This document shows, one piece after another, positions 26,423 through 43,685 of a stretch of 64,000 nucleotides of DNA; position 1 is the first letter of the stretch; each line of letters begins with the position of its first letter. A model generated the notes under the pieces. It saw only the letters and a list, made by a program, of their open reading frames with translations, did not search any database and had not been told where the DNA came from. Made by a program: the position numbers and the translations under genes. The stretch lies in contig NZ_BNEL01000001.1 in NCBI RefSeq assembly GCF_018327685.1, positions 992,001 to 1,056,000 on the forward strand, given 5' to 3'. Origin of the DNA: Streptomyces sp. TS71-3 (lineage in GTDB: Bacteria > Actinomycetota > Actinomycetes > Streptomycetales > Streptomycetaceae).

Positions 26423-26535
26423 CAGTTCGTTGCCGCAGGGCCACTTGGGTTGACGCCCGTTTCGCCGATGCCGCAGTAGCCCGCCGGGTTCTTGTCCAGG
26501 TACTGCTGGTGGTTACGGTCACTGTAGGGACTGCA
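26423..26535 (-). pseudogene. displaced fragment of the msrA 3' end (probable attL)
   Basis: Bases 26423-26512 match the 3' part of the intact msrA (about 42934-43023) in the same orientation, with about six differences, all transitions. Read on the minus strand it gives [16 protein letters not shown] and TGVN, the conserved MsrA C-terminus, then diverges on both sides. No 5' part of the gene is here. It is best explained as the original gene end pushed away when the integrative element entered msrA and supplied a new 3' end. Confidence 0.8.
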
Positions 26536-27542: not shown

Positions 27543-29003
27543 ATGGCGAACTTAACGGGAACGCGACGAGCAGCGATCTACTGCCGGATCAGCCAGGACC
27601 GGGGCGGCGCGGGACTCGGTGTAGCACGGCAGGAGGAAGACTGCCGGGCACTGTGCACCCGCCTGGGGTGGGAGGTCGTAGCCGTTCACACGGACAACGA
27701 CGTGAGCGCCTATTCGGGGGCGCCGCGTCCAGAGTGGACGGAACTCCTCGCGGCAGTGCGCCGGGGTGAGATCGACGCGATAGCGGTGTGGCACGTGGAC
27801 AGGATGACCCGCTCACCGCGCGAGCTGGAAGACGTCATTGACCTTGCCGACCGGCACGGCGTCGAGCTGGCCACGGTGAGCGGTGAGATCGATCTTGCAA
27901 CACCGACCGGCCGCATGGTCGCCCGCATGCTCGGGGCGGCAGCTCGCCACGAGGCGGAGCACAAGGCCGAGCGTCAGAAGCGGCAGCGCCGCCAGGCGGC
28001 GGAGGCTGGCCGGATAGCCGGGGGAGGGAAGCGCCCGTTCGGCTACGAGGACGACCGCATGACCGTGCGGAGTACCGAGGCGGAGGTGATCCGGGAAGGA
28101 GTCCGGCGGGTACTGGCGAATGAGAGTCTGGCGAGCATCTGCCGGGACTGGCAGGCGCGAGGCATCCTGAGCCCGGCGGGCAAGCCGTGGAAGCCGAGCG
28201 GACTGCGCCGTCTGCTGGCATCGGCCCGGATCAGCGGTCGCCGTGAGCACACACCGCGTGGGTCGTGGGAGAGCACCCGTCCGCTGCTCGGCGAGATCGT
28301 TGCGGATGGCGTGTGGCCCGGCATCATCAGCCACGAGGATTCGGACCGTGTACGGAGAATCCTCAGCGACCCGGCGCGACGCCAAAGGGTCGAGGGCACG
28401 ACGAAGCGGAGCTACCTTCTTTCCGGCATTCTGCGGTGCGGGAAGCCGAAGGAGAACGGGGAGCCGTGCAGGTGGCCCATGAACGGACGCCCCCGAAGCG
28501 GCGTACCGCGCTACGTCTGTCCCAACGTCCCCGGAACGGACGCGTGCGCAGGTACGGCTACCAATGCCGAGCGGACTGACGAGCACGTGCGCGACATGGT
28601 GTTGGCTGCCCTGGAGTCGCCTGCCTTCATGGAACGTCTGCGCGGGCAGGATGACGCCGGGAACGAGCTGTATGAGGAGATCCGGGGAGACGAAGAGGAG
28701 CTTGAAGCCCTTGCTCGGGACATGGGGGAGCGGAGGATCAGCCGCAAAGAATGGATGGTCGCCCGCCAGCCCATCGAGGAGCGTCTGAATCTGAACCGCG
28801 CCAAGCTGTCGAAGGTCTCACGGGCTGCCGTCCTCAGCGGGTTCGTCGGCACGTTCGAGGACATGCAGGAGCGGTGGAAGCAGATGAACAACTCGCAGCG
28901 GCGGGCAATCGTCACCGCGTGCGTGCGGTCGGTTGAGGTGCGTCCCGCGAATCCGCGGAAGCGGTGGGACCCTGACCGGTTCGTCTTCGATTGGGTCGCG
29001 TAG
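27543..29003 (+). CDS. large serine integrase
   Basis: A 486-aa site-specific recombinase. The N-terminal resolvase domain has its nucleophile Ser17 in AAIYCRISQDR, then WHVDRMTRSPRELEDV. The recombinase domain (KRPFGYEDD...SGLRRLLASARISG) is followed by a zinc ribbon (LRCGK...PCRW...YVCPN...DACAG) and a coiled-coil region (GDEEELEALARDMGERRISRKEW). It should integrate and, with a directionality factor, excise the element. No excisionase gene is evident. It is convergent with the Rep gene. The start codon lacks a clear ribosome site. Confidence 0.93.
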   Translation: MANLTGTRRAAIYCRISQDRGGAGLGVARQEEDCRALCTRLGWEVVAVHTDNDVSAYSGAPRPEWTELLAAVRRGEIDAIAVWHVDRMTRSPRELEDVIDLADRHGVELATVSGEIDLATPTGRMVARMLGAAARHEAEHKAERQKRQRRQAAEAGRIAGGGKRPFGYEDDRMTVRSTEAEVIREGVRRVLANESLASICRDWQARGILSPAGKPWKPSGLRRLLASARISGRREHTPRGSWESTRPLLGEIVADGVWPGIISHEDSDRVRRILSDPARRQRVEGTTKRSYLLSGILRCGKPKENGEPCRWPMNGRPRSGVPRYVCPNVPGTDACAGTATNAERTDEHVRDMVLAALESPAFMERLRGQDDAGNELYEEIRGDEEELEALARDMGERRISRKEWMVARQPIEERLNLNRAKLSKVSRAAVLSGFVGTFEDMQERWKQMNNSQRRAIVTACVRSVEVRPANPRKRWDPDRFVFDWVA

Positions 29004-29134: not shown

Positions 29135-30627
29135 TCACTGGGCACCAATGGCGCCCCCGGAAGTCCTGAGTGCTTCTCTGATGGCCTCCCGATGCGCCGC
29201 CGCATCTGTTGCTATGCCGAAGGCGATGAGCGCTCCGGCGGGGGAGTGGCCGGAGCCGACGTAACGCCAATAGGCATCCGTGACCGTGCCGAGCGTGTCC
29301 GTGTGGCCGGCATGCTCCGCACGCTGGGCGCGGAGCGCGGCATACGTCGTCGAGTACGCCCGGGATTTCGTGAGGATGTGGCCTCGATAGCCGAGGGTGT
29401 GAGCCCAGTCCCGTAGGCGCAGGGGCGCGTATTCGGGCAGGCCGCCCAAGCGCCAGCAGGCGCGCATGAGGGCACGCACATGAGGGCTCACGGCAGCAGC
29501 GTCTATCTCGTCTGAAGACGAGATCCGGTGGTCGAGGCCAGCCCCGGTTTCGCTGGCTCCCTTGGTGACGTACTTGGCCACGTACGCTGCTACGGCGTCA
29601 TCTTCCGGCCCATCGTCGCTCGTACGGATCGGGCGGACATCAATCTGGGCGCCCCAGGAGAGGACGGGTTCGCCGACCGCGGGACTGTAAGGCGTAGGCA
29701 CCGTGACTCGGCGAACGGCAGTGCGCACGGCTTCGGTGAGCCGATCCACTGTTGCCCAAGCCGGAGCTCCATCGTCGGGGCCGTCCGGGCCGTCGAGGCG
29801 AACCACGGCGTGAATGTGTACGGCGCCGCGCCGCTGGTACTCCGCGACCCGGGCGAATGAGAGCCGTGCGTGTGCGGCGAATTCGGATTGGGCGAGGCCT
29901 GCCGCGGAGGCGAGCTGCCGCCGGACGCCGAGGGTGAAACGGTCCCAGAGCTTGCCGGCGTGCGCGTGCCACAGGGCGTGGGTCACGTAGTCGTAACAGT
30001 CCGGGCAGATGGGTTGGCCGACCGCGGTGTCAGAAGGGCCGTGGGTGAAGCCGCAGCCGAGCGGGCGGCCGTGTTCGCAGGTGCCGCCGTCACGGCGGGG
30101 TCGGCAGATGTCTCCGGTGCGGTGGACGGGGCCGAAGGACGGTGCGGTCAGGGTGACGAAGAGCCGGGGATGGTCGCGGACGTCTGCGGGGACGCCTTTG
30201 CCGCCGAGGAGGCCTGCGCGGACCAGGTGGAAGGTGTCGCCTGCGTGGAGTCGTGAGCAGGGTGCGCAGACGGTTGCGCGGCGGTTGCGGCAGCGGATGA
30301 GGAGGCGTTCGCCGGGTTCGCCGTGGGTGTCGTAGTGGTGCAGGACCTCGCCGGTGTCCGGGTCCAGGGTCGTGGTGTGGCCGGAGAGGTGGACCGGGTG
30401 GGCGCATCCGCCTGTGGCAGTGACCTGTTGGAGCCAGCGGGGGAATTTCGGGTCTTGGGCGAGGCGTATGGCGTCGCGGTCGATCTCGGAGAGGTGGCGC
30501 AGGCGCGCCGCGGAGTTGAGGGCAGCGCGCCTGTCGCCGGCATTGGCATCGAGTCTGATGGAGGTGCCCTTTCGGGGTGAGCCGCCGAAGCGGCACGGGT
30601 AGTGGGGGCTGGCGCGCGGTGGGTCAT
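29135..30627 (-). pseudogene. RepSA-type replication initiator with an N-terminal frameshift
   Basis: Read on the minus strand, one open frame from about 30560 to 29135 encodes a typical AICE RepSA protein: a Cys-rich N-terminal half (ATGGCAHPVHLSG; LIRCRNRRATVCAPC; GQPICPDCYDY), then HARLSFARVAEYQRRGAVHIHAV with the HxH of rolling-circle initiators. This frame has no ATG, GTG or TTG upstream. The only good start (ATG 30627, aaggagatccc ribosome site) is in another frame. The two join only with a one-base shift near 30560-30590. It is either a real mutation or a sequence error. It would start replication of the excised element. Confidence 0.75.
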
Positions 30628-30798: not shown

Positions 30799-30996
30799 TC
30801 AGAAGTGGGAGAAGCCGCTGAAGATCCAGGTCACGAAGCCGTCGATGGTGGCCACCGCGGGTGTGTGGCCGAGGTAGACGCCGAAGAGGGCGATGCACAC
30901 GGCTTCCCAGACGCGGACGTCGCGGGAGCGGACCAGGAGGACGGTGATGATCCCGAAGAGCACCACGAGGGACACGGCAACACCAGTGCTGATCAC
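30799..30996 (-). CDS. Spd-like small membrane protein
   Basis: A 65-aa protein from GTG 30996, overlapping the traB-like stop by four bases (GTGA), with ggagg upstream. Two hydrophobic segments (VAVSLVVLFGIITVLLV and VCIALFGVYLGHTPAVATI) make it an integral membrane protein. Its place after the translocase fits Spd (spread) proteins, which help the element move between mycelial compartments. The sequence itself carries no diagnostic motif. Confidence 0.65.
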   Translation of the reverse strand: MISTGVAVSLVVLFGIITVLLVRSRDVRVWEAVCIALFGVYLGHTPAVATIDGFVTWIFSGFSHF

Positions 30997-32294
30997 TTCT
31001 CGCCTCCTGCAAGGGCTGAAAGGGCACGGTCGACGGCGGGCATGTCGGGGGTGACGTCGGCGTACTGGCGGGCGATGGCCGCCGCGTGTTTCGTGGTGGT
31101 GAGATGAGAGCGGGCGCGGCTCCAGCCGCCTTCCGGGCCCGTGCACACGGCCACGCCCTTCTCCTCCGAGGTGATGGACTGCGCGACGGCCACGGCGTCT
31201 TTGTTGAGGTCGCCGAGGGTCATCTCCGCGGTGCCGGGGTCGTTGACCCGGTGGCAGATGCGGCCGCCGAGTTGCGCACGTAGCGCGGTGACGCCGGGGC
31301 CGAGGTCGGAGCCGACGCGTTGGCCGGCCACGACCAGGTGCATGCCGAGTGCGGCACCGAGCTGGGCCAGGCGCAGCAGGAGCGTGGAGCACTGATCGGC
31401 TTCTGCCTTGCCCTCGCGGGTGCCGTCCGACAGGTACAGCTCCGCCAGTTCATCGACGATCACGACGACGGGTACGGGCCGTAGCTTCTCGGGCAGTTCC
31501 CAGATGGAGCGGACGCCTGCTGCGCGGCATTCGTGCATGCGGTCGTGCATGTCGACGACGAGCGCGGACAGCACTGCCACGGCCTCCCGCCGGCAGGTCG
31601 TCAGGGCGCTGAGTCGGTCCGCGAAGAGGCCGAGTTCCATGCCGCCCTTGCAGTCGATGCCGATCAGCGCGACCGGCTGTGGTGCGAGTTGGGTGATCAG
31701 TCGGGCCAGCAGGGTGGACTTCCCGGAGCGGGTGGCACCGGCTATCAGCCAGTGCGGGACCATCAGCAGATCCATCACCCACGCCGTGCCGTTCTCCAGC
31801 ACGCCGACGAGTGCGGACAGCAGTTGCACGGGGGCGGTGATCAGGCCCGGACGTTCGAGCGGGTCACTGCCCGTCGCCGTCAGTACCACGAGCCCGCGGT
31901 TCGGGGAGGTCACCCGTACGGCGTGCACTTTCCAGGCGTGCGCGAGCGCATCGGCCGCCGCCGCGAAGGTATGCGGAACCTGGCCCGGGTGCAGCCTCAC
32001 CGTCACGGTCAAGCCGGTCCGGTTGGGCCAGGGGAAGGAGATGCGCGGCGCGATGGGCCGCAGCGGCTCGCCCTTGACGAGGAGGTCACCGATCAGGCCG
32101 CGGGGCGGGCGTCGGGAGATGGCGAGGTCGTTGAGGATGGCGACCTTGCGCCAGGTGCTCAGCACCCGCCACGCGGTGGGCAGGTAGCCGCTGAGGTACC
32201 AGTGCCAGGCTGGACGCTTGCAGCGCAGCAGGTCACCGAGGAACAGCGACCAGGCGATGACCACTAACGCGGCGACGAGCACGAACGTGGTCAT
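30993..32294 (-). CDS. FtsK/TraB-type conjugative DNA translocase (TraSA-like)
   Basis: A 433-aa protein. An N-terminal membrane helix (TFVLVAALVVIAWSLFL) and a basic region precede the FtsK-like ATPase with Walker A GATRSGKS (186-193) and Walker B VVVIVDELAELY (about 273-284). In Streptomyces a single such hexameric pump moves double-stranded DNA between cells, needing only a cis-acting clt site. It is in an operon, overlapping the 114-aa gene upstream by one base and the Spd-like gene downstream by four. Probably repressed by the divergent GntR protein. Confidence 0.92.
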   Translation of the reverse strand: MTTFVLVAALVVIAWSLFLGDLLRCKRPAWHWYLSGYLPTAWRVLSTWRKVAILNDLAISRRPPRGLIGDLLVKGEPLRPIAPRISFPWPNRTGLTVTVRLHPGQVPHTFAAAADALAHAWKVHAVRVTSPNRGLVVLTATGSDPLERPGLITAPVQLLSALVGVLENGTAWVMDLLMVPHWLIAGATRSGKSTLLARLITQLAPQPVALIGIDCKGGMELGLFADRLSALTTCRREAVAVLSALVVDMHDRMHECRAAGVRSIWELPEKLRPVPVVVIVDELAELYLSDGTREGKAEADQCSTLLLRLAQLGAALGMHLVVAGQRVGSDLGPGVTALRAQLGGRICHRVNDPGTAEMTLGDLNKDAVAVAQSITSEEKGVAVCTGPEGGWSRARSHLTTTKHAAAIARQYADVTPDMPAVDRALSALAGGEK

Positions 32295-32638
32295 CAGGCC
32301 GCACCACCCTTCGGCGCGGCACTGCCGTGCACGGGCGTGATGGCGTCCGCGCGGAAGCTGATTCCGTGTCGGTCGCCCATCGCCCAGGCGAACGCCACCA
32401 GCCCGGTGACCTTGACGACCTGTCCCTCTTCGAGCCCCTTGGGTTCGCCGGGAACGGCGATCTCGATGACGGAGATACGCCGCCTGTCCTGCCGCACGGT
32501 CACCGCCACGGTGTAGACGGTCTTACCGTCGCGATCCTTCTTGACTTCCCCGGTCTCGGCGTTGCTGATCTTCGCTTCCGGCGGGATGGCGCATCGCAGT
32601 ACGCCGAGCCGGGTGGTGTCCACGGGAATGGACTGCAT
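32294..32638 (-). CDS. conserved AICE protein ahead of the translocase
   Basis: A 114-aa, beta-rich protein (MQSIPVDTTRLGVLRCAIPPEAKISNAETGEVKKDRDGKTVYTVAV...GQVVKVTGLVAFAWAMGDRHGISFRADAI). The pattern suggests an OB-fold-like single-strand DNA binder, but no decisive motif is seen. It is the first gene of the transfer operon, directly facing the GntR gene. Homologous small genes commonly precede traB in pSAM2-like elements. The function is unknown. Confidence 0.7.
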   Translation of the reverse strand: MQSIPVDTTRLGVLRCAIPPEAKISNAETGEVKKDRDGKTVYTVAVTVRQDRRRISVIEIAVPGEPKGLEEGQVVKVTGLVAFAWAMGDRHGISFRADAITPVHGSAAPKGGAA

Positions 32639-32664
32639 GCTGTTCGGCCTCCTTGGCCATCTGC

Positions 32665-32688
32665 GTCAGCCAAGACAATCTGGCTGAC
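32665..32688. promoter_or_regulatory. inverted repeat in the tra/korA divergent promoter
   Basis: GTCAGCCA-N8-TGGCTGAC, perfect 8-bp arms, 27 bases upstream of the transfer operon. Further short words (ACTTGTCCTTACGAGTTAC, about 32692-32711; CAAGTACTTATG near 32740) lie between it and the GntR gene. These are candidate repressor sites. Confidence 0.6.
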
Positions 32689-32821
32689 GTCACTTGTCCT
32701 TACGAGTTACAACTATGGAGGACTGTACGACGTGGATGCAAGTACTTATGCTGACGAGTGACGCCGCGCGTGCGACGTCCCTACAACCGGGCTACGACTA
32801 CGACGACACGAAGGTGCCGAG

Positions 32822-33601
32822 ATGACGGAGATCCAGCGCCCCGGCGCCCTGTATCAGCAGGTGGCCGCAGCCATTCGCGAAGCGATCCTGGCCGGCGAGT
32901 TCGCCCCCGAGACGCTGTTGCCGTCCGAAGCGCAGCTCATGGCCCGGTACAAGGTCTCGCGCCCCACCGTCCGCAACGCGATTGCCGCACTGCGCGCCGA
33001 AGGACTCATCGAGGTCCGCCACGGCAAAGGCAGCTTCGTCCGCTCCGACGGCCAGCCAACCGTCACCCTGGAACGCCGCGTGAGCCGGACCCCGGAGGGC
33101 AGGTTTGCCATGCCCAACGGCACCGTCTGGGACGAGGCCGAAGAGCCCAGCGTCTACCGCACCCACACCACCAAGGACACGGCCCCGCTGCTCGCCCTGA
33201 ACGAGGACGAAGCCCTCTTCGGCTGTGACCGCTTCCTGGTCGACCCGGCCACCGGCGCCCGCACCATGCAGCGCACCCTGATCCCCTTCGAGGTCGCCGA
33301 GTCCGTTCCGCGCCTTGCCGAGGCACCGGACCGCGCGCCCGCGTCGATCTACGTACTGCTCGCCGAGGCCGGCCACGAACTGTGGTGGTCGGAGACGGTA
33401 CGAGCCCGCATGCCCCTGCCCGACGAACGCGCGGCCCTCCGCCTGCCGGACGCGACCCCGCTGCTGCACCTGGCCCGCGTCACCCACGGCACCGACGACC
33501 GCCCCCTGATCCTCGAAGAGCTGCGCGTCGGTGCGGACCGTGCCGAACTCGCCTACCGCATCAGCCCCGACGACCCCACCACCGGCCGCACCTCGGCCTG
33601 A
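32822..33601 (+). CDS. GntR-family repressor (KorSA-like, UTRA domain)
   Basis: A 259-aa protein. The winged HTH (ALYQQVAAAIREAILAGEFAPETLLPSEAQLMARYKVSRPTVRNAIAALRAEGLI) is at residues 10-65. A UTRA/chorismate-lyase-like effector domain follows (about 95-250), as in HutC-type regulators. It is divergent from the transfer operon. In pSAM2, KorSA in this position represses transfer and replication genes and keeps the element integrated, so the same role is inferred. There is a moderate ribosome site (gaaggtg). Confidence 0.88.
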   Translation: MTEIQRPGALYQQVAAAIREAILAGEFAPETLLPSEAQLMARYKVSRPTVRNAIAALRAEGLIEVRHGKGSFVRSDGQPTVTLERRVSRTPEGRFAMPNGTVWDEAEEPSVYRTHTTKDTAPLLALNEDEALFGCDRFLVDPATGARTMQRTLIPFEVAESVPRLAEAPDRAPASIYVLLAEAGHELWWSETVRARMPLPDERAALRLPDATPLLHLARVTHGTDDRPLILEELRVGADRAELAYRISPDDPTTGRTSA

Positions 33602-33802
33602 GCGTCGAGGTCGATCTGTCGAAACTTTCTCTACTTCCTCAAGGGCGCGCCTGCGGCGCGCCGGGGCGCCCGGCCGCCCCGGCCGGGCGTGCGGCGTGGC
33701 CGCCGGTCCCGTCCGGTCGCCCGACGCCCCGCACCACGCACTGAGGAACGAGAAGCGCCGACCGGCGGTTCCCAACCGGGGGCCGAGTGGCTGGGGGTCG
33801 GC

Positions 33803-33965
33803 GGCCTCCGAGGCTTTAGACAGCTCCCATGGGGCGAGCCTCGAAGAGCAGGGGGCTAATCGGGCACTACAGCGGGCAGGGCAGGTGCCTGCCCGATTCG
33901 CCGGGCCAGCGTAAGGCCCCCTGCTCACTCGCCCCATGGCAGCTACCGTCCAAAGCCTCGGAGAC
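33803..33965. repeat. long imperfect inverted repeat (candidate clt or origin)
   Basis: Two arms of about 50 bp (left 33805-33856, right 33914-33963) sharing CTCCGAGGCTTT, CCATGGGGCGAG and AGCAGGGGGC, around a centre holding GGGCA...TGCCC repeats (AATCGGGCA / TGCCCGATT). It lies in a 419-base gap without genes, downstream of the repressor. In an AICE this could be the cis-acting transfer locus or a single-strand origin. It might instead be a large terminator. Confidence 0.6.
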
Positions 33966-34020
33966 CGCCGACGTGCCCACCTGACCCGCTCCCAGGGCAC
34001 CCCACCTGGCAGAACGCGCA

Positions 34021-34326
34021 TCACGCGGCACCGCCCCCCTGGCCGTCGACCGCCTCCAAGACCTCAGCGAGCCGCATCACCGCACTCGGCCAACCGGCCA
34101 GCCGCACGACGCCGCGCCCGTCCATGTCCGTCGAGGCCGCCGCCCTCACCTCCGACAGCTCAAACCCCGCACCCAGAAGCGCCCGGTTCAGCCGATCAGC
34201 CGCCCGCCGGGCTTCCTGCCACCCGGCTACGTAGTCGACCCCGGCAACCCACAGACCCGCGTCCGAACCCTCAAGATCAAGACCATCCCGCAGCCAGTCC
34301 TCACCCGAGCCCATCACCTTGTTCAC
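34021..34326 (-). CDS. AICE-associated hypothetical protein
   Basis: A 101-aa protein read from GTG 34326; ATG 34314 is an alternative. The sequence VNKVMGSGEDWLRDGLDLEGSDAGLWVAGVDYVAGWQEARRAADRLNRALLGAGFE is a mixed alpha-beta fold without recognised family. Preceding bases give agaggcaggg as ribosome site. It stands alone between the long inverted repeat and three hairpins. The function is unknown. Confidence 0.6.
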   Translation of the reverse strand: MNKVMGSGEDWLRDGLDLEGSDAGLWVAGVDYVAGWQEARRAADRLNRALLGAGFELSEVRAAASTDMDGRGVVRLAGWPSAVMRLAEVLEAVDGQGGGAA

Positions 34327-34385
34327 CCCTGCCTCTGAGCTATGTAACGGATCATCAACTTCATGTGCCCGAGGCAAAAACGCAG

Positions 34386-34557
34386 CGCGACGGCCCCGGT
34401 ACCATCAGGCACCGGGAACCGTCGCGTTCCCAGCCGGGCCACCCTTCGCTTTCCTAGGGCAGATGGGGTGGCCCGGTCTCGGTATGAGTTGGTGAGGCGC
34501 GGCTCCACAAGCGCGGAGGACGAAGGGTCCCCCAGGGGAGCCGGGGAACCGCGCCTC
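34386..34557. terminator. three consecutive perfect-stem hairpins
   Basis: CGCGACGG/CCGTCGCG (34386-34426, with an inner CCGGT/ACCGG), CCGGGCCACCC/GGGTGGCCCGG (34434-34476) and GAGGCGCGG/CCGCGCCTC (34494-34557). They fill the gap after the 3' end of the HATPase gene. One would suffice as terminator, so an added role is possible. Confidence 0.7.
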
Positions 34558-34648
34558 TGGCCGGAGAGGTCAGCCTCCGACCATGGACCGGGCCGCTGCT
34601 CACGTGCGGTGGCAATGGACGAGAGCAGCGCCCCGGGGTCTGTCAGGC

Positions 34649-35194
34649 CTAGAAGGCCCTCAATCGGTCGAGGTCGAAGCGGCACCACACGCTCTTGCCG
34701 CCCTTGATTCCTGGTGACCACCACACCGACTCGGCCAGCCGCTGAGTGATCAGCAACCCGCGCCCCCGGTCCGGCAGCATCGCTTCGAGCAGGCCGCCTG
34801 CCAGATTCGGCGAGACGAAGTCACCGGGTGGAAGATCAGGGGGAGTCGAATCCTCATCCGAGACCGCGAGGATCAGCACCTCGGGCCACGTCATCACAGT
34901 CACGTCGATGCGCCGCCCTGCACCGGGCTCTGCCAGGTGGTTGTCAGGCACGGCGTGATGCACGACGTTGCCGACCAGTTCCGAGACGACGAGCTGAGCA
35001 GCGTCAACCGCATGCGGCAGCTTCCAGCTCTGGAGCGAGGAACGGATCATGTCCCGCGCCGCTTTCGCACAGTCCGGCGACTCGGCGTAGACCGTCAGCG
35101 AACGGAAATGCCCGGTCGCCGGATCATGCACCGAGCGAGGGGAAGCGCCCACCGTCGAGGCGTTCGCTGCATGTTTGCTCTCCTTTGCCACCAC
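34649..35194 (-). CDS. HATPase (RsbW/anti-sigma-like) regulatory protein
   Basis: A 181-aa protein with the N box ELVGNVVHHA and G box GRGLLITQRLAE of histidine-kinase-like ATPases (HATPase_c_2), as in SpoIIAB/RsbW anti-sigma factors. It lacks kinase dimerisation and sensor parts. Streptomyces has many such orphan proteins beside XRE regulators, as here. It starts GTG 35194 with ggaggg upstream. It is divergent from the XRE/TPR gene through shared operators. Confidence 0.85.
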   Translation of the reverse strand: MVAKESKHAANASTVGASPRSVHDPATGHFRSLTVYAESPDCAKAARDMIRSSLQSWKLPHAVDAAQLVVSELVGNVVHHAVPDNHLAEPGAGRRIDVTVMTWPEVLILAVSDEDSTPPDLPPGDFVSPNLAGGLLEAMLPDRGRGLLITQRLAESVWWSPGIKGGKSVWCRFDLDRLRAF

Positions 35195-35291
35195 CGCGTT
35201 CCCTCCAGAGCACTGACGGGTTCCGTAGTCCGTTGATCTGCGGCGACCAGTGAACGACGCAGGAGGTCAAGGCGGGAGCGTTCACAAGGGG

Positions 35292-35339
35292 GTTCACATG
35301 AACACCAGCGAGGGCAAGGGGGTTCACCAGTGAACCCCC
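35292..35339. promoter_or_regulatory. TTCAC-type palindromic operators
   Basis: GTTCACATGAAC (35292-35303) and GGGGGTTCACCAGTGAACCCCC (35318-35339, perfect 10-bp arms) are both preceded by the direct repeat CAAGGGGGTTCAC or its part. Their location in the HATPase/XRE divergent gap suggests binding by the XRE protein. Confidence 0.8.
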
Positions 35340-35397
35340 GGGTTCAAAAGCTGTGACACCATGGACACTCGCCGTCATTCTCGGATGGGCAGGGAGC

Positions 35398-36762
35398 ATG
35401 AGCCGAGAGCCGAACGAACCGTTGATCTCCCTCATGGACGAGGCCGCGTTCTCGAACAAGGGCCTGGCCAAGCGCATGCGTGATCTCGCTCAGCAACGCG
35501 GCGAAGACTTGAAGACAACCCACGTCGCCGTACAGCGCTGGCGCGACGGGAGCGGCATCCGGCCGCAGGCAGCCTTGATCATGGCGGAGATCTTCAGCTC
35601 GAAACTGAAACGTCGTATCACGCCAGGTGATCTAGGCCTGTTCGGCGAGCCGGAGTCACGCACGCCCCAACCAGTGGCCTATGCCGCCTCCTTACCCGAA
35701 GCGTTGTCCGCGCTGAGCGTCCTTACCGAGGAACAAACCGAGGCCACGACGAGCAGCAAACTAGTCATCCCGGACGCGGATCTCAGTTCCGCCGTCCTGT
35801 CATGGATGGTGACGCGGACGAATGAGGTTCAGGCAGACCGCCCAGCCTCTCAGCATGTCGGCATGCGCGATGTACGCGCGATTCGCACCGCCACCGAGAT
35901 GTTCATGCGACTGGATTTCCTGTACGGCGGCGGCCACGGCCACAAGGCCTTACGGCACTACTTCCGCGAAGAAGTGCTACCTCTACTCAACGCCAGTTAC
36001 ACAGCGAAGGTCGGCCAAGCTCTCTTCACCGTAGCCGCGGAGACCGCCGAAGTGCTGGGTTGGATGGCGTACGACATTGGAAATCACGGTCTAGCGAACC
36101 GCTACCTACTTCACGCCCTACGCCTCACCCAGGTCACCGGGGACCGTATGTTCGGCGCGTCCATCCTGGCCAATCTCAGCCACCAGGCAAACTACCTGGG
36201 ACAGACATCACGCGCCCTGCAACTAGCCCGGTCCGCCGTCGAAGGAGCCAAGGACAGCGCCACGCCACGTGCCAAGGCCATGTACACGATCCACGAAGCC
36301 CGCGCTCTGTCCAGCGTCGGCGATCGCTCCGGCGCGGAACGCGCCATGAATGAGGCAGAACGCCACCTAGAGAAGGCCACACCTGATGGCCCGGAGTGGC
36401 TTTCCTATTTCGATGAGGAAGAACTCATCGGCGAGTTCTCGCACTGCTTCCGCGACCTCAGGCGACCCGCCGAATCACTTCACTTCGCCGAAGAAGCCGT
36501 AGCCAGAACCGACCCGCAATATGCACGTACACTCGGCTTCTGCCGCATGGTACTCGCCGAAAGCTATCTCTTGAACGGTGAACTGGAGAGTGCGATTGGC
36601 GCGGCAACTCAGGCAGTCGAGAAAGGCGAGTCACTACAATCGACTCGCTTTGTACGCTACGTGACCGACTTCCAGCAGAAAATCGGCGGTAACGCCGGAA
36701 TGCCGATCGTGGCTGACTTCAATCGTCAAGTCACCGAGGCTCTGTCCAGCTTGGAGGAGTAG
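35398..36762 (+). CDS. XRE-type regulator with C-terminal TPR region (NsdA-like)
   Basis: A 454-aa protein. It starts MSREPNEPLISLMDEAAFSNKGLAKRM with ggag upstream. An N-terminal helix-turn-helix-like region (KTTHVAVQRWRDGSGIRP) is followed by about 300 residues of helical TPR-like repeats (ANLSHQANYLGQTSRALQLARSAVEGA; DLRRPAESLHFAEEAV). Streptomyces NsdA and related proteins with this layout control sporulation and antibiotic production. The GC content is lower than in core genes. It probably acts with the divergent HATPase gene. Confidence 0.8.
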   Translation: MSREPNEPLISLMDEAAFSNKGLAKRMRDLAQQRGEDLKTTHVAVQRWRDGSGIRPQAALIMAEIFSSKLKRRITPGDLGLFGEPESRTPQPVAYAASLPEALSALSVLTEEQTEATTSSKLVIPDADLSSAVLSWMVTRTNEVQADRPASQHVGMRDVRAIRTATEMFMRLDFLYGGGHGHKALRHYFREEVLPLLNASYTAKVGQALFTVAAETAEVLGWMAYDIGNHGLANRYLLHALRLTQVTGDRMFGASILANLSHQANYLGQTSRALQLARSAVEGAKDSATPRAKAMYTIHEARALSSVGDRSGAERAMNEAERHLEKATPDGPEWLSYFDEEELIGEFSHCFRDLRRPAESLHFAEEAVARTDPQYARTLGFCRMVLAESYLLNGELESAIGAATQAVEKGESLQSTRFVRYVTDFQQKIGGNAGMPIVADFNRQVTEALSSLEE

Positions 36763-36775
36763 ACGACCAATCCGG

Positions 36776-37693
36776 TCAGTACGGAAGCCACCGACGCGGC
36801 GCACGCTCATCACGCAGCGACACCATCCGCCGGCCGAACTCCGCAGCCACGTCCTCCCCCTCGGCCACGTTCTGCATGAGCCAGGTCGTCATCTTGAACT
36901 CCTGAATGGCACACAGCGTTTGGAACCCTGACCAGTCCCTCAGGTCCCGCCCGTAGGCCCCCACGAAGTCGGCGTAATGCTCGTCCGTCACCCACCCGAG
37001 CCGGTCGTACTCGTGCGCAGCCACCTCAAGATCCCACTCAGGGTGATCAACACAGAAGTTCTCGAAGTCGATCAGATACACGACTCCATCGCGCCCCACC
37101 ATCAGGTTGTCGGTGTGGGCGTCGCCGTGCACCGGCCCAAGCGGCGACTCGAACCGCAACTCCTCCAGCTTCTCCTTCAGCTCCTGCCTCCGCTTACGCA
37201 AGAACTGAAGATCGTCACTCGGTATCCCCACAGCACGCTCAAGCCTCAGATCAGCACGCCCGAATGCGTCGTACCGAGGCAGCTCCAGACCCTCCGGAAG
37301 CGCCAGCGCATGAAGGTCACGAAGGACTGCACCCAACTCCCCGTACGTAGCTCCCCGGCCCTCTTCAACGATCAAGTGCCAGAAGGTCACCGGATGACCA
37401 TCGATCACAAACGGCTGCTCAAGATCGTCAACGACGCGAGCCGCCGGGAACCCCTCCCGCGCCAGCCACCGTGAGACGGCGACCTCTCGACGCACCGAGG
37501 ACAGATACTCGACCGACCGAGCGACGCGCACGATCACCTGCGCCGAACGCAACCTGAATAGAGCGTTCTCCCCCAGACGGATCAGCTCTGCCTCTCCGGC
37601 ATCGAGTCCCGCAGTTCGGCACGCGGCGGCCAGCACCCGCGCAGCCCTCGCCGACGTGAACCCCGCTTGCGCTCGAGCAGCGTCAGCCGCCAT
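36776..37693 (-). CDS. aminoglycoside phosphotransferase (APH) family kinase
   Basis: A 305-aa protein. A kinase-like N-lobe (IRLGENALFRL...VIVRVARS) is followed by the APH catalytic loop GPVHGDAHTDNLMV (His-Gly-Asp...Asn) and metal motif YLIDFENFCVDHPEWDL. The start at 37693 (MAADAARAQAG) is chosen over a longer frame of low-complexity sequence. APH-fold kinases modify antibiotics or small metabolites, and the substrate is not predictable. A fragment of a related gene lies at 51936-52083. Confidence 0.85.
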   Translation of the reverse strand: MAADAARAQAGFTSARAARVLAAACRTAGLDAGEAELIRLGENALFRLRSAQVIVRVARSVEYLSSVRREVAVSRWLAREGFPAARVVDDLEQPFVIDGHPVTFWHLIVEEGRGATYGELGAVLRDLHALALPEGLELPRYDAFGRADLRLERAVGIPSDDLQFLRKRRQELKEKLEELRFESPLGPVHGDAHTDNLMVGRDGVVYLIDFENFCVDHPEWDLEVAAHEYDRLGWVTDEHYADFVGAYGRDLRDWSGFQTLCAIQEFKMTTWLMQNVAEGEDVAAEFGRRMVSLRDERAPRRWLPY

Positions 37694-37881
37694 GCCCGCA
37701 CCAGCTCCCCTAGTCGCGCGACCAACCAGCGCACGTCTACGGGTGACCAAACCCGACGCACGCCGGACACGACGTAGACGCTACCCAGCAATCGCTGCCA
37801 TCGGCGAGGGTGCCTGACACACAACCACGCGCCGAGGCAAAGCCACTCCAGATCCGCTAAAGGTGAGGCAGAATCAGGTCC

Positions 37882-39789
37882 ATGAGATTGCCAATCGTTG
37901 CGGGATGGCCGGCCTGTACTGTGATGAATTGCGAGGCGGACCAAGCGGGCTATGGTGAGGATAAGTGTGTAACCCATCTTTCTGAGGGGGAGTTGGGAGG
38001 ATGGTTGTCGCGACTTGGGCCGGAGGCGGAGATTCATCTAGCTCGCACTCAACTCGCCAAGGGTACCCTGGACCAAATTAAAGGAGCTGTCACGGGACAG
38101 GACGACGTTCCTCAATTTGGCTATCTATCGCTCAGGAGGGCCGAAATCGAGGGCGGTGTTGATCTTTGTTATTCGCGATTTTCTAAAGAGGTAGATCTCT
38201 ATGGATTGAAAGTTTCTAAATATCTGGATTTTGAAGGAGTCCAGGTATCGGGAGGGCTCGATGCAAACTTCATTGAGGCGCCCCAGGGGGTCGACTTCTA
38301 TCGAGCTAAGATAGGGGGAAGTCTAAACCTTGAGGGTTCGAAAGTTGGTGAACAGGTTAGGGTCGCGCGATGTGATATAGATGGGTCTTTCCTGCTTAGG
38401 GGATGTCAGGTAAGTGGCAATGTGGAGTGTTACGAAGTCAAGGTATCTGGGCCCGCTTACCTATCTAATATGCAAGTCGTTGGAGATATTTCTTTTCGTA
38501 ATTCATCATTCTCTGATGGGGTTCAGTTTTTCTATACAGAAACTTCCGGGTATTTTAACGTATCGGACTCCGAGTTCTCTGGGTTCGTGGAGTTTGAGGG
38601 GTTGCGAATCGCCCACGACTTGATATGGGAACGTGCATCCTTCCGAGATGACGTGACTTTCGACAAGGCAGACCTGTCGGGTTTGGTGCAGGGCTCATGT
38701 CTTTTTTATAAGGGTGTAAATTTTATACGTACTATTTTTCGATCTGCTGTTATAATCCAGGCTTGCGCACGCCGAGTGGACTTCTGGGGAGCGAGATTCG
38801 AGGTAGGGGGCACGCTGCTGCTTCGCTATGCCATGGTGCGCATGACCGGTGCAATCCTTGCAGGTCCCACAAGCCTCGTTGCCTTCAATCGCAACTTCGT
38901 AGATATATTTGGCGACCCTATGGATGAGTTCGTGATTCCGCATGAAGACCCAAACGTGAAACTGCTGGATATGGGCAGTGTAAATGCGGGGAACTTGACG
39001 CTTGTAGACATCGATCTCACGCCGTGTCGTTTCGCCGGAGCTTTTAATCTTGATCAGCTCCGGCTCGAAGGGGAGTGGAATTTCGGAACTCCACCAAGTG
39101 GGCGCGTCGGTATTACTCCATTTACTTGGGCGAAGCGTAAGATCATCGAAGAGGAACGACAGTGGCGCGCACTTCGTAGCCATCCACTAGTGCTGAGAAG
39201 CGGATGGGGGGATCCACCGGACAATCCGCGTGATGTTCCTGGAGTTGCCGCACTGATGACTACCTACCGGCAACTTCGCAAAGGGCGCGAGGACGCGAAG
39301 GACGAGCCAGGGGCGAACGATTTCTATTATGGCGAGATGGAAATGCGCCGCCATAATCAAAGCTGGGGAAAGGGCGAGCGGTGGCTCCTGCAGTTCTATT
39401 GGCTGTTGTCGGGCTATGGCATCCGTGCCTCGCGCGCCTTCGGATGGCTCATTATCTCAATGATCCTTACGATACTACTGATGATGGGATTCGGCCTTCC
39501 TCAAGATTCCCCGAAACAGGAAGCTGCAGGGACTGTACCGCCCGGCGGTGGGAAGGTAACTTTCGAGATCGACAAGGAGGACCCGAGAAATCCCATCGGT
39601 GACCGTTTTACCAGCAAGCGATTCGAGAGAGCGCTTAACGTGACGCTCAATTCAGTGGTGTTCCACTCCAGCGATCAAGATCTAACGACGACTGGTACGT
39701 ATATCGAGATGGCCTCACGATTCTCCGAGCCGGTTCTGCTAGGACTTGGCATTCTGGCGATCCGTGGCCGGCTCAAGCGTGGAAGCTGA
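37882..39789 (+). CDS. low-GC membrane protein with pentapeptide-like beta-helix repeats
   Basis: A 635-aa protein. After an N-terminal region (HLSEGELGGWLSRLGPEAEIHLARTQL), repeats of about 20 residues (VDLYGLKVSKYLDFEGVQVSG; SLNLEGSKVGEQVRVARCDIDG) run from about 80 to 390 and should form a right-handed beta-helix. A helical part and one clear membrane span (AFGWLIISMILTILLMMGFGL) follow, then a conserved end (VVFHSSDQDLTTTGTYIEMASRFSEPVLLGLGILAIRGRLKR). Codon use is strikingly AT-rich for Streptomyces, a mark of foreign origin. Similar proteins are sometimes annotated as membrane-associated oxidoreductase without evidence. The function is unknown. Confidence 0.8.
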   Translation: MRLPIVAGWPACTVMNCEADQAGYGEDKCVTHLSEGELGGWLSRLGPEAEIHLARTQLAKGTLDQIKGAVTGQDDVPQFGYLSLRRAEIEGGVDLCYSRFSKEVDLYGLKVSKYLDFEGVQVSGGLDANFIEAPQGVDFYRAKIGGSLNLEGSKVGEQVRVARCDIDGSFLLRGCQVSGNVECYEVKVSGPAYLSNMQVVGDISFRNSSFSDGVQFFYTETSGYFNVSDSEFSGFVEFEGLRIAHDLIWERASFRDDVTFDKADLSGLVQGSCLFYKGVNFIRTIFRSAVIIQACARRVDFWGARFEVGGTLLLRYAMVRMTGAILAGPTSLVAFNRNFVDIFGDPMDEFVIPHEDPNVKLLDMGSVNAGNLTLVDIDLTPCRFAGAFNLDQLRLEGEWNFGTPPSGRVGITPFTWAKRKIIEEERQWRALRSHPLVLRSGWGDPPDNPRDVPGVAALMTTYRQLRKGREDAKDEPGANDFYYGEMEMRRHNQSWGKGERWLLQFYWLLSGYGIRASRAFGWLIISMILTILLMMGFGLPQDSPKQEAAGTVPPGGGKVTFEIDKEDPRNPIGDRFTSKRFERALNVTLNSVVFHSSDQDLTTTGTYIEMASRFSEPVLLGLGILAIRGRLKRGS

Positions 39790-39915
39790 GGGGTGGCTGC
39801 ATTGCATGTCATGGGAAATACGAGGGGGCCCCGGCGCCTGCGATCGAGCATAGTCGCTTTCGCCTGCGGGTTGCAGTACCCGGGGTATTGCAGCCTATGT
39901 GACCTGCCTGTGGGC

Positions 39916-41205
39916 TCACGGGCGAGTGATACGCATGCTTGGTATGTTCCCCTTACCGGTGCATGAGGTCTTGCCCTCTCGATGCAACCCTTTGATGGCA
40001 GCCCGTATGTGCATCTGCCGTGCTTCACCAAGGGCAAGTCCCATGATCTCGGCATGGTAGCGATTCACGCTTACGGCAGCGTGCTCCTGCAGCAAGCCGA
40101 GAATGTTCTTCTTGATCTCTTCGACCCAGCCGCGTTCTCGTTGGTTTTCTTCTTGCTCAAAAATGTCTTCCTCATTGAAGAGCATCCCGTCAGCAGGCGG
40201 TGGGAGAATTTCACGGCGCCACTGCGCTTGAGCGTGGCTGATTGCCTCGCCGAAGAGCCAAAGTCCATCTGTGTGGCGACTGAAAAGTACCAGATGATAG
40301 GCCGGTTGGTGATGCTCACGATTGCGCACCGGGATAGTCCATGAGTGTGCCCTCACGGCGGCACCGACTCGTTTCGCGAATCCGTTTGCTATACGTTCGA
40401 CTGCCTCCCGGTTGTCTTCTGAGTTCTGGTACTCGCCACGCCACCAGTCCCCTCCACAGGCAGCGTCCATCGCCTCCAGCGTCGCCTGCTTCCCCTTTGG
40501 TGTCTTGGTGCTTACCAGTAGCCCGCCAATTCGGCGCACTGCGTTGGCGTTGAAGTTCAGCAGCACCTCGGTTGCATCGCGACCGGTGGCTCCGGCTGGT
40601 TCACGCGACCCGAACAGCTGAGTGGTTAACGCATCGAAGCTGAGTCCCAGGCCGAAGGGGTCGATGAACGCAAGCAGTGGTGATCCTTTCGCTTGCTCCA
40701 AGACGTAACCTAAGTGCTTCTCGACCTTGCCCTTGAGCGCTTCTGCAGTCAGGCCGCGTTCACGGGCTTCCGCGACGAGCTGGTCGAGGCGTTTGAAGTC
40801 TGCAGGACGACGCTCGATGAAGTAGCAGTCGAGCTGACGGATGCTGGCCACGTCGGCCGCTGAGTCCAGAATCAGAGCCGGTGACCCGGGCGTTCCGTCT
40901 TCGTAGCGGCCAGGGCCAGCGTAGCCGTCCAGGTAGACGACGCGGCCGCCTGGCGCCCACCTACCCACCTTCGCCACGAACGGCTTGACGTACCGCTGAA
41001 GGATTTCGTGTTTCAAGAGGGCGGCGGCCTTCTTGCTCACGAAGAACTGACGTGTGGCGTCAGTGACTTCCTCGCCGGCTTCTTCGCCACTGAGTAGGAG
41101 TTCTTCGTCCTCTACGTGCTCTGGCTCGACCAAGATTCCGCCCCCTCTGTCTTGGATGCAGTTGCATTTGACATTTTGGGCCGGATCGCGAGCAAGCGCA
41201 TCCAC
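39916..41205 (-). CDS. TcmP (three-Cys-motif partner protein)
   Basis: A 429-aa protein from GTG 41205; the start is uncertain and a TTG about 25 codons in has a better ribosome site. TRQFFVSKKAAALLKHEILQRYVKPFVAK leads into a Rossmann-like LDGYAGPGRYEDGTPGSPALIL, and later AFIDPFGLGLSFDAL. This is the TcmP family, named because its gene sits beside the three-Cys DUF5131 protein, exactly as here (45-base gap). The fold suggests S-adenosylmethionine binding, but no reaction is known to me. The codon bias is relaxed. Confidence 0.85.
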   Translation of the reverse strand: MDALARDPAQNVKCNCIQDRGGGILVEPEHVEDEELLLSGEEAGEEVTDATRQFFVSKKAAALLKHEILQRYVKPFVAKVGRWAPGGRVVYLDGYAGPGRYEDGTPGSPALILDSAADVASIRQLDCYFIERRPADFKRLDQLVAEARERGLTAEALKGKVEKHLGYVLEQAKGSPLLAFIDPFGLGLSFDALTTQLFGSREPAGATGRDATEVLLNFNANAVRRIGGLLVSTKTPKGKQATLEAMDAACGGDWWRGEYQNSEDNREAVERIANGFAKRVGAAVRAHSWTIPVRNREHHQPAYHLVLFSRHTDGLWLFGEAISHAQAQWRREILPPPADGMLFNEEDIFEQEENQRERGWVEEIKKNILGLLQEHAAVSVNRYHAEIMGLALGEARQMHIRAAIKGLHREGKTSCTGKGNIPSMRITRP

Positions 41206-41250
41206 CTTGATGCGATTACTTAGCTGACTTGTCCTGCTGCTGGGTAGCCC

Positions 41251-41997
41251 TCAGGCCGTGACAGGCGTGGGCAGTTCGTCCCATGTGCGGCCTTGGAGGA
41301 GGCGACCGTTGGCTTTGGGAGTACGTCCTCCCCACTGCTTGAAGAAGAACGCCACATCGCTGTCCTGGCATGCATCGCGAATTGATGTTGCCCAAGCCTC
41401 ATCCATCGGTCGGTGGCGGGGCCCGGACTCGCCGCCAGCGATGACCCAGTGGATCCCGTCCAGACGCAAGTCATCTAGCGGGCCGAGTAGTGGCTCACAA
41501 GACAAGAAGCGGACTGCGGCTGGCACTTGGCGTAGGTCATCGATTCGCGGCAGCTCTTGGACCGTCTCGACCGATACACCCATCCACAAGTTGGTTGGCC
41601 ACTCCAGGCTGTCCGCAACCTGGCGCAGGCGCCGGGCCCTCTTGGTTAGCACCTGGTACGTGTGTTGAGGGGTGTCGGCGATGACGTGGAACACGCGTCG
41701 CACGTACTCAAGAGGTACACGGGCGTGGAAAAGGTCAGACATGGAGTTGACGAAGACCGTTCGAGGACTGCGCCACTGGTAGGGGACTTGGAGGACGTCT
41801 GGGTGTAGAGCGACGCCGAACCCCGGGCCAGATGTCCGAGGGTCTCCGTCTTTCTGGTACTTGTCCGAGCCCATTGCCTTGAGCCGCTTGGACAGTGCTA
41901 GGGCGTAGCAGTTGTCGCACCCAGGGGAGACCCGGTCACATCCGGTTGTGGGGTTCCATGTGGCTTCGGTCCACTCGATGCTGCTGCGATCGCTCAC
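41251..41997 (-). CDS. DUF5131 (phage Gp37/Gp68-like) three-Cys protein
   Basis: A 248-aa protein from GTG 41997 with ggggagg upstream. The defining cluster is WNPTTGCDRVSPGCDNCYA: Cys20, Cys27, Cys30 (C-x6-C-x2-C). It probably holds an iron-sulfur cluster in a radical-SAM-like barrel, with later motifs SCEPLLGP and VIAGGESGPRHRP. Homologues occur in phages and mobile elements and pair with TcmP. The two genes are in one operon. No substrate is known. Confidence 0.85.
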   Translation of the reverse strand: MSDRSSIEWTEATWNPTTGCDRVSPGCDNCYALALSKRLKAMGSDKYQKDGDPRTSGPGFGVALHPDVLQVPYQWRSPRTVFVNSMSDLFHARVPLEYVRRVFHVIADTPQHTYQVLTKRARRLRQVADSLEWPTNLWMGVSVETVQELPRIDDLRQVPAAVRFLSCEPLLGPLDDLRLDGIHWVIAGGESGPRHRPMDEAWATSIRDACQDSDVAFFFKQWGGRTPKANGRLLQGRTWDELPTPVTA

Positions 41998-42173
41998 CGG
42001 TTGCCTCCCCTTCTCGCACCACACGGACTGCACGCAACCGTATGCGACGACACAACGACCTCGTGCGGGAACAGACACCGCCCTCCAACCACCGGACCTC
42101 TTCATCATTCAGGCCTCTTCAGCCCCTAGGAGGCGTCAGGGAGTGTCACACCTTGGCGGCGCACGGGAGGGTG

Positions 42174-42345
42174 CCTGAAAGCGGCACCGGGCCAATCAAC
42201 ACCGCTGGACCGGCTGCCCTGTTGATCCAGGCAGCAAGTAGGAGGGCACCAGAATGCCCCACTGACCGAGACCGTCCAACGCCGACTTGGCTTGACCTCC
42301 GTCCCGCCGAGTCCGCGGCGCTCGTTGCTGTCACTTGATCGCTGC
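42174..42345 (-). pseudogene. partial duplicate of the adjacent small membrane gene
   Basis: Stretches such as ctgccctgttgatcca and actgaccgagaccg repeat the 5' part of the neighbouring gene (42640-42740). Minus-strand reading gives AAWINRAAGPAVLIG, matching AAWINRAAGPAGVIA there, but the frame is not sustained. It is a decayed tandem duplication between DUF5131 and that gene. Confidence 0.65.
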
Positions 42346-42753
42346 ACCTGGTACCAGTGCGACCAGGGCTGAGATGAAGCTGCCTATGCCGGCGAGGGTG
42401 ACGATGGTGGCCTTGCCGTCGGAGAACAGGCCGGAGCAGAAGGCGCGGACCTGGCGGCGGAGGATCAGCATCCGGAGTTTCTGGAAGCGGTGCTGTCGGA
42501 TGTGGCAGCCGAGGAGGAGTCCGTGGGCGTTGTTGCGGCACCCGTCCAGTCCGCCTCTGATGCGTACCTCTGCGCCACATGTGACGGGGGCCTGGAACAG
42601 GCACCAGATCAGCAGAGCAGCCGAGAGGGCGATCACCCCCGCCGGTCCGGCTGCCCTGTTGATCCACGCAGCGATCAGGAGGGCGCCGACAAGCACCCCC
42701 CACCACTGACCGAGACCGCCCAACGCCTTGCTCTTGGTTCTCGAAGTCGCCAT
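42331..42753 (-). CDS. small integral membrane protein of integrative elements
   Basis: A 140-aa protein. Two N-terminal membrane helices (GVLVGALLIAAWINRAAGPAGVIALSAALLIWCLF) are followed by a Cys/His-rich segment (CRNNAHGLLLGCHIRQHRFQKLRML) and a final membrane helix (ATIVTLAGIGSFISALVALVPGA). The Cys-His region may bind metal. Such proteins recur as cargo of Streptomyces integrative elements, but I know no function. It is the last gene before msrA. Confidence 0.65.
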   Translation of the reverse strand: MATSRTKSKALGGLGQWWGVLVGALLIAAWINRAAGPAGVIALSAALLIWCLFQAPVTCGAEVRIRGGLDGCRNNAHGLLLGCHIRQHRFQKLRMLILRRQVRAFCSGLFSDGKATIVTLAGIGSFISALVALVPGAAIK

Positions 42754-42878
42754 GCCGGGATACGTCCCGAGGCGAACGACGCTTCATGCTCCAAGAGGTC
42801 AGCGTGTCTGGAACCCAGTGCTGAACGGCTCACTTTCGATGACACGCTGTGGTTGGACGCTCCCTGTACGGAATCGGG

Positions 42879-43589
42879 TTAGTTGGCTTCGGGCGTAGGA
42901 GCCGGGGCGATCCCGATCGCGCAGGCCGCCCCCCAGTTCGTCGCCGTAGGGTCACTTAGGTTGACGCCCGTCCCGCCGATGCCGCAGTAGCCCGCCGGGT
43001 TCTTGTCCAGGTACTGCTGGTGGTACGCCTCGGCCGGGTAGAAGGTGCGGCCCTCCGACGGGAGGAGTTCCGTGGTGATGGTGCCGTGGCCGGCCGACGT
43101 GAGGACCTTCTGGTAGGCATCGCGGGACGCCTCCGCCGCGGCTGCCTGCTCGGGGGTGTGGGTGTAGATCGCCGAGCGGTACTGCGTACCCACGTCGTTG
43201 CCCTGGCGGAAGCCCTGGGTGGGGTCGTGTGCCTCCCAGAACACCTTCAGGAGGGTGGCGTACGAGACCTTCCGCGGGTCGTAGACCACGCGTACCGCTT
43301 CCGTGTGGCCCGTCAGACCGGAGCAGACCTCCTCGTACGTGGGGTTCTGCGTCTCGCCACCCTGGTAGCCGACCAGGGTGGTCCACACGCCTTCCGTCTG
43401 CCAGAAGATGCGTTCCGCACCCCAGAAGCAGCCCAGGCCGAAGTCGGCGATCTCCAGACCCTCGGGGTAGGGGCCCAGGAGGGGGTTGCCGAGGACGGTG
43501 TGGCGCTCGGGAACCTGGAACGACAGCTCCGGGCGGCCGCGCAGGGCCTCGCCGGGGGCGGGGAGGACGGGGGTTCGACCGAAGATCAT
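42879..43589 (-). CDS. msrA: peptide-methionine (S)-S-oxide reductase
   Basis: A 236-aa protein. It repairs oxidised methionine; catalytic Cys54 lies in GCFWGAER. The start at 43589 ([20 protein letters not shown]) has ggagacaag upstream and matches the usual Streptomyces N-terminus; 43613 is a longer alternative. The C-terminal region [20 protein letters not shown] carries the recycling Cys. After that the end ([27 protein letters not shown]) is longer than usual, consistent with a 3' end supplied by the integrated element, whose left edge holds the displaced fragment. Confidence 0.93.
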
Positions 43590-43647
43590 CTTGTCTCCTA
43601 CAGAGGTGGGCATGTAAGGGAACGTCCCGTCGGCGCCGTGGATTCCC

Positions 43648-43685
43648 GGTCCGCTTCCCGGTCCGCTTCCCGGTCCGCTTCCTGT
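43648..43685. repeat. 3 x 12-bp tandem repeat
   Basis: cccggtccgctt three times, in the gap between msrA and the next gene. Confidence 0.85.

Follow-up and report, generated by a model that had tools for sequence, protein, structure and literature searches.

The question raised by a 64,000-nucleotide (nt) stretch of Streptomyces sp. TS71-3 (contig NZ_BNEL01000001.1, positions 992,001 to 1,056,000; hereafter, the window) is whether three adjoining genes inside an integrative element make up one conflict or modification cassette, as a preliminary description had proposed. Two of them, encoding TcmP and a DUF5131 protein, are near certain to be a paired module, and the third appears to be a separate passenger that is no part of the pair. 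Our reading of the pair, in which we place about even confidence, is that of a self-contained, two-enzyme, nucleic-acid-modifying module, one of the exchangeable cargoes of a slot that is often filled with defence genes in an actinomycete integrative and conjugative element (AICE). The three open reading frames (ORFs) lie together in the element, as described:

37882..39789, + strand: pentapeptide-repeat protein of 635 amino acids (aa) with a hydrophobic C-terminal segment, apparent passenger (PF13576, 8.9e-13; neighbourhood counts)
39916..41205, - strand: tcmP, 429 aa, predicted RlmJ-like class I S-adenosylmethionine (SAM) methyltransferase (TIGR04474, 9.9e-42; structure model with a predicted local distance difference test score, pLDDT, of 88.5; motifs)
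41251..41997, - strand: DUF5131 gene, 248 aa from a probable GTG start at 41997, ORF opening at 42108 (PF07505, 1.3e-101; PADLOC PDC-M41B/PDC-M30B; model pLDDT 91.4; spore photoproduct lyase, SPL, as best fold match)

Of the 120 homologues listed, 110 span 248-252 aa, so that the 285-aa reading of DUF5131 (41251-42108) probably overshoots and GTG at 41997 is the probable start. The genes of the pair share a strand, DUF5131 first, with a gap of 45 nt, and the 635-aa gene runs the other way and converges on tcmP; an operon is thus open to TcmP and DUF5131 alone, the two genes for which the preliminary description had named one. The latter is AT-rich, as had been noticed, with a guanine-cytosine (GC) content of 52.4% (GC at third codon positions, GC3, 0.53), the values being 59.3% for TcmP, 62.1% for DUF5131, 64.2% for the element, and 71.6 and 72.5% for the chromosome flanks. 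What had been described as a beta-helix repeat protein is a Pentapeptide_3 match, and its putative membrane end is readable as a hydrophobic C-terminal stretch.

That TcmP and DUF5131 travel as a pair, as the preliminary description stated, is borne out by their neighbourhoods. TcmP loci come from a scan of genome contigs with 74 aligned TcmP sequences (92 relatives, best 80 loci kept), and viral DUF5131 loci are the best 80 of 330; genes in retrieved loci were called mechanically, from GC by codon position rather than by a trained gene finder. DUF5131 is present in 76/80 TcmP genome loci, within 500 nt in 74 of them: 59 convergent, 11 with DUF5131 followed by TcmP, and 4 in the reverse order. 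TcmP is adjacent in 49/80 viral DUF5131 loci, with 21 convergent, 20 and 7 in the two tandem orders, and 1 divergent, and seven of the 31 remaining viral records have a TcmP match elsewhere. Within 6 kb of the pair, every other gene family is confined to 14 or fewer of the 160 loci. DUF5131 proteins are widespread: at least 8,000 scored as homologues, and the gene occurs in 400/72,556 plasmid records and in 159/50,697 phage records (51 Mycobacterium and 49 Gordonia phages), neighbouring TcmP convergently in Gordonia phages. Near DNA matches of the cargo itself numbered 0 in plasmids and two, both partial, in phages. At L105 7960-9969, L115 10881-11948, and L145 2444-3652, ORFs with DNA-methyltransferase motifs stand beside, or a few kb from, a viral DUF5131 gene without TcmP, as if another methyltransferase could stand in for TcmP; these are motif-level sightings at a few loci, and the association was dropped as a candidate.

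The two partners have diverged at very different rates. Across 123 pairs (locus L164, whose two genes lie >3 kb apart, was left out), TcmP has a median pairwise identity of 22.6% and DUF5131 one of 61.2%, and DUF5131 identity exceeds TcmP identity in 99.75% of 7,503 comparisons. The identities correlate nonetheless (r 0.758; best of 500 permutations 0.168), as they do in the genome subset of 75 pairs picked by TcmP (medians 31.6 and 68.7%, r 0.752, permutation maximum 0.135); the 48 viral pairs, picked by DUF5131, have medians of 19.8 and 55.5%. In 17/123 cases, the nearest TcmP relative has a different gene arrangement. Because identities correlate and linkage persists across arrangements, the two genes are largely co-inherited, their linkage kept through rearrangement; to judge by sequence, a conserved radical-SAM-type partner is joined to a fast-diverging methyltransferase-type partner. 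Alignment A1 (TcmP) leaves out 47 of 120 listed homologues, A2 uses 63 of 80 viral loci, and A3 and A4 use 15 and 13 of 30 loci, the mis-framed L276 and L283 being dropped from A4.

The pentapeptide gene behaves differently. Relatives occur in 54/150 Streptomyces genomes, source genome counted, several being fragmentary or carrying stop codons, and in 92/72,556 plasmid records, 82 of them Streptomyces. By coordinate comparison in the 150 genomes, only the source genome has the gene near TcmP/DUF5131; elsewhere, the shortest distance readable within a contig is 93 kb (G096), and some drafts (e.g., G020, G115, G144) have the genes on separate contigs, where distance is unreadable. Flanks reaching up to 10 kb were included for the pair, and the family is found in 0/80 TcmP genome loci and 0/80 viral DUF5131 loci; 20 pentapeptide loci have no recurrent neighbour family except one, transposase-like by eye, in two loci. 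The preliminary description had suggested counting how often the 635-aa family lies close to the pair, and had held that a membrane gene unrelated to it would speak against the cassette; for the trio, this is what the counts give. On neighbourhoods in genomes, TcmP loci, and viral DUF5131 loci, the three genes as one system were largely rejected, and a role of the pentapeptide protein as effector is not supported. Its low GC is no family trait either: in 28 homologue loci, the median GC is 0.689, against 0.690 in the flanks, although 17 are somewhat lower than their flanks. L071 is as AT-rich as the gene in the window (0.527, flanks 0.634), and L044 comes next (0.596, flanks 0.642).

TcmP scores 143.7 bits against TIGR04474 (cut-off 53), and its model has RlmJ as best fold by VIA and Trm1 by Foldseek, so that the SAM-type loop seen earlier belongs to a predicted SAM-methyltransferase fold. 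With strands at 88-93, 124-131, and 177-181, the model places the loop DGYAGPGRY (D93-Y101), the acidic residue E131 after strand 2, and motif IV (D182-P183-F/C/Y-G185) after strand 4, as in class I SAM methyltransferases of the nucleic-acid type; residue 185 is G in all 74 aligned sequences. RlmJ, the 23S rRNA A2030 N6-methyltransferase, has DPPY as its motif IV, a sequence absent from the window TcmP, which has DPFG. Besides having DP[F/C/Y]G where RlmJ has DPPY, TcmP differs from RlmJ and Trm1 in a C-terminal extension and mobile-element carriage. We thus describe TcmP as a predicted RlmJ-like class I SAM methyltransferase, whose C-terminal helical part could be a winged helix.

The C-x6-C-x2-C motif reported for the DUF5131 protein corresponds to C20/C27/C30 (248-aa numbering) and is invariant in 64/64 aligned sequences. 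The model has a (beta/alpha) barrel of the radical SAM type, and the three cysteines form a [4Fe-4S]-type motif of unusual spacing, the usual radical SAM spacing in SPL and SplB-like enzymes being C-x3-C-x2-C. DUF5131 further differs from these enzymes in sharing 10% identity and in lacking any fully conserved cysteine beyond the cluster (C210 in 61/64, C167 in 25/64); Cys140 is catalytic in SPL, and its mutants are named in PDB titles among the fold matches. Searches of PDB sequences with single proteins and profiles gave chance matches only, and no weight was given to folds missing from the VIA lists. Against TIGR04471 (radical SAM mobile pair protein A), the protein scores 69 bits, short of the 355-bit cut-off for membership. 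DUF5131 is thus a predicted SPL-like radical SAM enzyme, with putative cluster binding and SAM cleavage.

The same gene pair is listed in PADLOC-DB 2.0 as candidates PDC-M30/M41, and both components are present in the window, 45 nt apart: DUF5131 matches PDC-M41B at 7.3e-111 and PDC-M30B at 1.9e-106, and TcmP matches PDC-M41A at 4.4e-12 and PDC-M30A at 1.6e-07. The likeness has its bounds: these systems are candidates by guilt-by-embedding only, and the TcmP match is modest. PDC-M30 was predicted in 32/100 P. aeruginosa strains, 68.8% of these resistant, a correlation (PMC10855318), and is mentioned once in another paper (PMC11878078); a TcmP gene, SMa2243, is tabulated with hna among regulated genes (PMC12445080), and TcmP appears among prophage ORFs (PMC12429752). 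Among the literature matches listed, titles and abstract openings gave no function for TcmP or DUF5131, and no anti-phage activity was reported for the pair. The analysis turned up no homologue whose reaction is assigned, and the model names of TIGR04474 and TIGR04471 give none, in agreement with the preliminary description, which knew of no such reaction.

The element that carries the pair is bounded by a 91-nt direct repeat, its copies 93% identical and the right one within msrA. Its main features are as follows:

26423..26513: att-like direct repeat, left copy, remnant of the msrA 3' end (repeat comparison)
27543..29003, + strand: large serine recombinase of the element (PF00239, 5.7e-34; PF07508, 1.1e-12)
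29135..29986, - strand: RepSA-type replication initiator (PF20199, 2.6e-87)
30993..32294, - strand: FtsK/SpoIIIE-type ATPase, TraB-like, transfer (PF01580, 1.3e-25)
35353..36762, + strand: NsdA-family regulator bordering the slot (NF053720, 5.9e-115)
36776..37750, - strand: APH-family kinase-like gene bordering the slot (PF01636, 3.4e-24)
37771..42330: cargo slot, block absent from the sister element of genome G045, which has other genes instead (flanks 27484-37770 and 42331-43650 colinear with locus L239)
42879..43613, - strand: msrA, host gene with the integration site (PF01625, 2.1e-62)
42934..43024: att-like direct repeat, right copy, inside msrA (repeat comparison)

With a RepSA initiator, an FtsK-type transfer ATPase, and site-specific integration, the element is an AICE of the pSAM2 type; a family search adds a GntR regulator, and we take the layout to be that of pSAM2-like AICEs. 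It differs in its large serine recombinase and msrA target, where pSAM2 uses a tyrosine integrase and a tRNA target; the 64-kb window holds no tRNA gene. Between DUF5131 and the ORF at 42331, a degenerate second copy of the right end occupies 42190-42316 (78 nt and 25 nt matching 42627-42727 at 76% and 96% identity, plus 32 nt matching the msrA att repeat at 81%). This copy suggests, at the level of sequence, that the cargo arrived by tandem insertion at msrA. A parallel is seen in G045, where ORF 42331 recurs as a partial second copy at the other end of the element (L239 18132-18406). Next to the slot, at 34649-37750, an HATPase, the NsdA-family regulator, and the APH-like kinase form a group that recurs in the sister elements of G045, G331, and G386.

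Close relatives of the recombinase occur in 9/392 Streptomyces genomes at E 1e-100 or better, source genome counted (5/246 in a subset). In G045, with a 97% identical recombinase at the same msrA site, the window block of pentapeptide gene, TcmP, DUF5131, and decayed end copy is gone, and the slot holds an Abi_C protein (PF14355, 1.3e-5), DUF4297 (PADLOC, 6.9e-26), and HerA (3.4e-222). In G331, the msrA-APH interval contains an NsnA-like protein (1.4e-57), an MTase_II match (1.4e-19), and an unmatched 225-aa ORF. The same interval is empty in G386, whose element encodes Hachiman elsewhere (HamA, 3.7e-83; HamB, E 0), and in G055 the stretch from recombinase to msrA encodes, by Pfam, a PIN_12 protein and a caspase/iHD-CE/wHTH-HSP90 protein of 1694 aa. 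Conflict genes are thus present in 4/8 sister elements, three catalogued and one domain-predicted, two of them in the same slot, in a small sample without a matched control. The msrA-site family seems to be a vehicle for defence genes, and its exchangeable slot is a place to seek more of them. The intervals concerned are L244 6683-11060 (Hachiman), L240 13932-19016 (caspase/iHD-CE/wHTH-HSP90), L239 3351-7590 (HerA-DUF4297 and Abi_C), and L268 12166-15461 (NsnA-like/MTase).

From the observed linkage, motifs, and slot exchange, together with the predicted folds, we infer a substrate and an order of steps. TcmP, an RlmJ-like methyltransferase with DP[F/C/Y]G as motif IV and probable nucleic-acid binding by its C-terminal part, would recognise and methylate a base, an exocyclic amine being our best guess; DUF5131, as a minimal SPL-like radical SAM enzyme, would act by radical chemistry on that base or on a neighbour. 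Own DNA or RNA would then be marked against attack, or invading or host nucleic acid would be altered on infection. It is likely, from predicted folds and motifs, that both enzymes modify nucleic acid; a defence role is plausible, given the slot and the PADLOC candidacy, and defence of the host, hence of the element, is somewhat more likely than self-protection alone. Of the defence or modification layout in the preliminary description, the tight pair, the predicted radical SAM and methyltransferase folds, and a slot with catalogued defence genes in two sister elements stand, and the membrane gene drops out.

Several results weigh against this reading. Motif IV of TcmP is variable at residue 184 (F in 54, C in 12, Y in 8 of 74 sequences), which weakens any firm choice of target atom; the Foldseek E-value between DUF5131 and SPL is only 1.4e-3, and a shared fold is no proof of reaction. 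In the viral subset, the identity correlation is weak (r 0.336, permutation maximum 0.211), and DUF5131 may act alone, because 24/80 viral records lack a TcmP match, some of them fragments. Phage carriage of the pair fits self-protection or repair equally well. Among sister elements, the conflict call for G055 rests on Pfam domains, PADLOC giving no match, and 4/8 have no clear defence gene: G289 (a tetratricopeptide-repeat protein, weak PDC-M71B at 1.1e-9), G105 (no match), G018 (DUF7019, weak RmrA at 2.9e-4), and G400 (transposases, decayed). PADLOC families were counted at E 1e-10 as model matches, several of which may fall on one protein, in three samples chosen differently: 120/148 nearest genes, one per side of the pair; 118 of 120 genes drawn from the 168 in 20 random Streptomyces stretches, after removal of two long ones from a single stretch; and all 116 genes, up to three per side, around 20 pentapeptide loci. 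Pair neighbours gave 26 PADLOC family matches, including a type IIG enzyme, a type I restriction endonuclease, HamC, and a type IV enzyme, against 2 for random genes, but pentapeptide neighbours gave 89, so the test is unspecific. The 25 listed among these 89 include 15 PD-T4-6 kinase models, as well as Cas3e, a type I methyltransferase, and PDC-S14. Because relatives of the pentapeptide gene score as well, the test fails to single out the pair, and enrichment was dropped as proof of defence; both the pair and the pentapeptide gene tend toward accessory regions.

Since phages carry the pair, self-protection is a rival to defence: the pair might shield its element or phage by modifying its own DNA against host restriction (anti-restriction), as phage-borne DNA methyltransferases do. 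The phage and plasmid records of DUF5131 argue for this, as do the few TcmP-less viral genes near ORFs with methyltransferase motifs; yet two sister elements have defence genes in that slot, and, to our knowledge, neither RlmJ nor SPL, the fold neighbours, is an anti-restriction enzyme. We regard it as possible, if on the unlikely side. A repair pair, in which DUF5131 would reverse a base lesion like SPL and TcmP would restore or mark RNA or DNA after damage, seems quite unlikely. In its favour, SPL is the nearest fold, and SplB-like radical SAM photolyases are tied to SOS gene neighbourhoods (PMC3765255). Against it, SPL relies on the catalytic Cys140, whereas beyond the cluster DUF5131 has no cysteine that is invariant, and patchy spread (22/150 genomes) and mobile-element carriage are ill-suited to housekeeping repair. 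A single conflict cassette of three genes, with the pentapeptide protein as membrane effector, is very improbable. The three stand side by side in a block swapped as a whole in G045, and all are more AT-rich than the chromosome flanks; against this, beyond the TcmP and viral loci without the family, stand 0/53 other pentapeptide-bearing Streptomyces genomes at contig-readable distances, the opposite strand, and 20 pentapeptide loci without a common partner apart from the transposase-like family.

A bolder form of the defence reading, which we consider unlikely, would make the pair an unrecognised immunity class based on radical base chemistry: a strongly conserved SPL-like enzyme (median pairwise identity 61%) and a fast-diverging RlmJ-like targeting subunit (23%) would install a novel DNA or RNA base modification by which invaders are blocked or marked, viperin being the nearest antiviral fold relative. 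Viperins are antiviral radical SAM enzymes, and SPL-type radical chemistry would enter bacterial immunity alongside them if defence were true. For a pair this widespread, with no reaction assigned in the literature found, the fold assignments render the chemistry testable: a predicted radical SAM enzyme and a predicted methyltransferase, with named catalytic residues, in a tractable Streptomyces element. Elsewhere in the window, a low-GC stretch at 52087-54558 contains an 823-aa ORF in which serine-recombinase domains are fused to an IS4/5-type transposase domain (DUF4096), probably the leftover of another element with an insertion sequence (IS) inserted.

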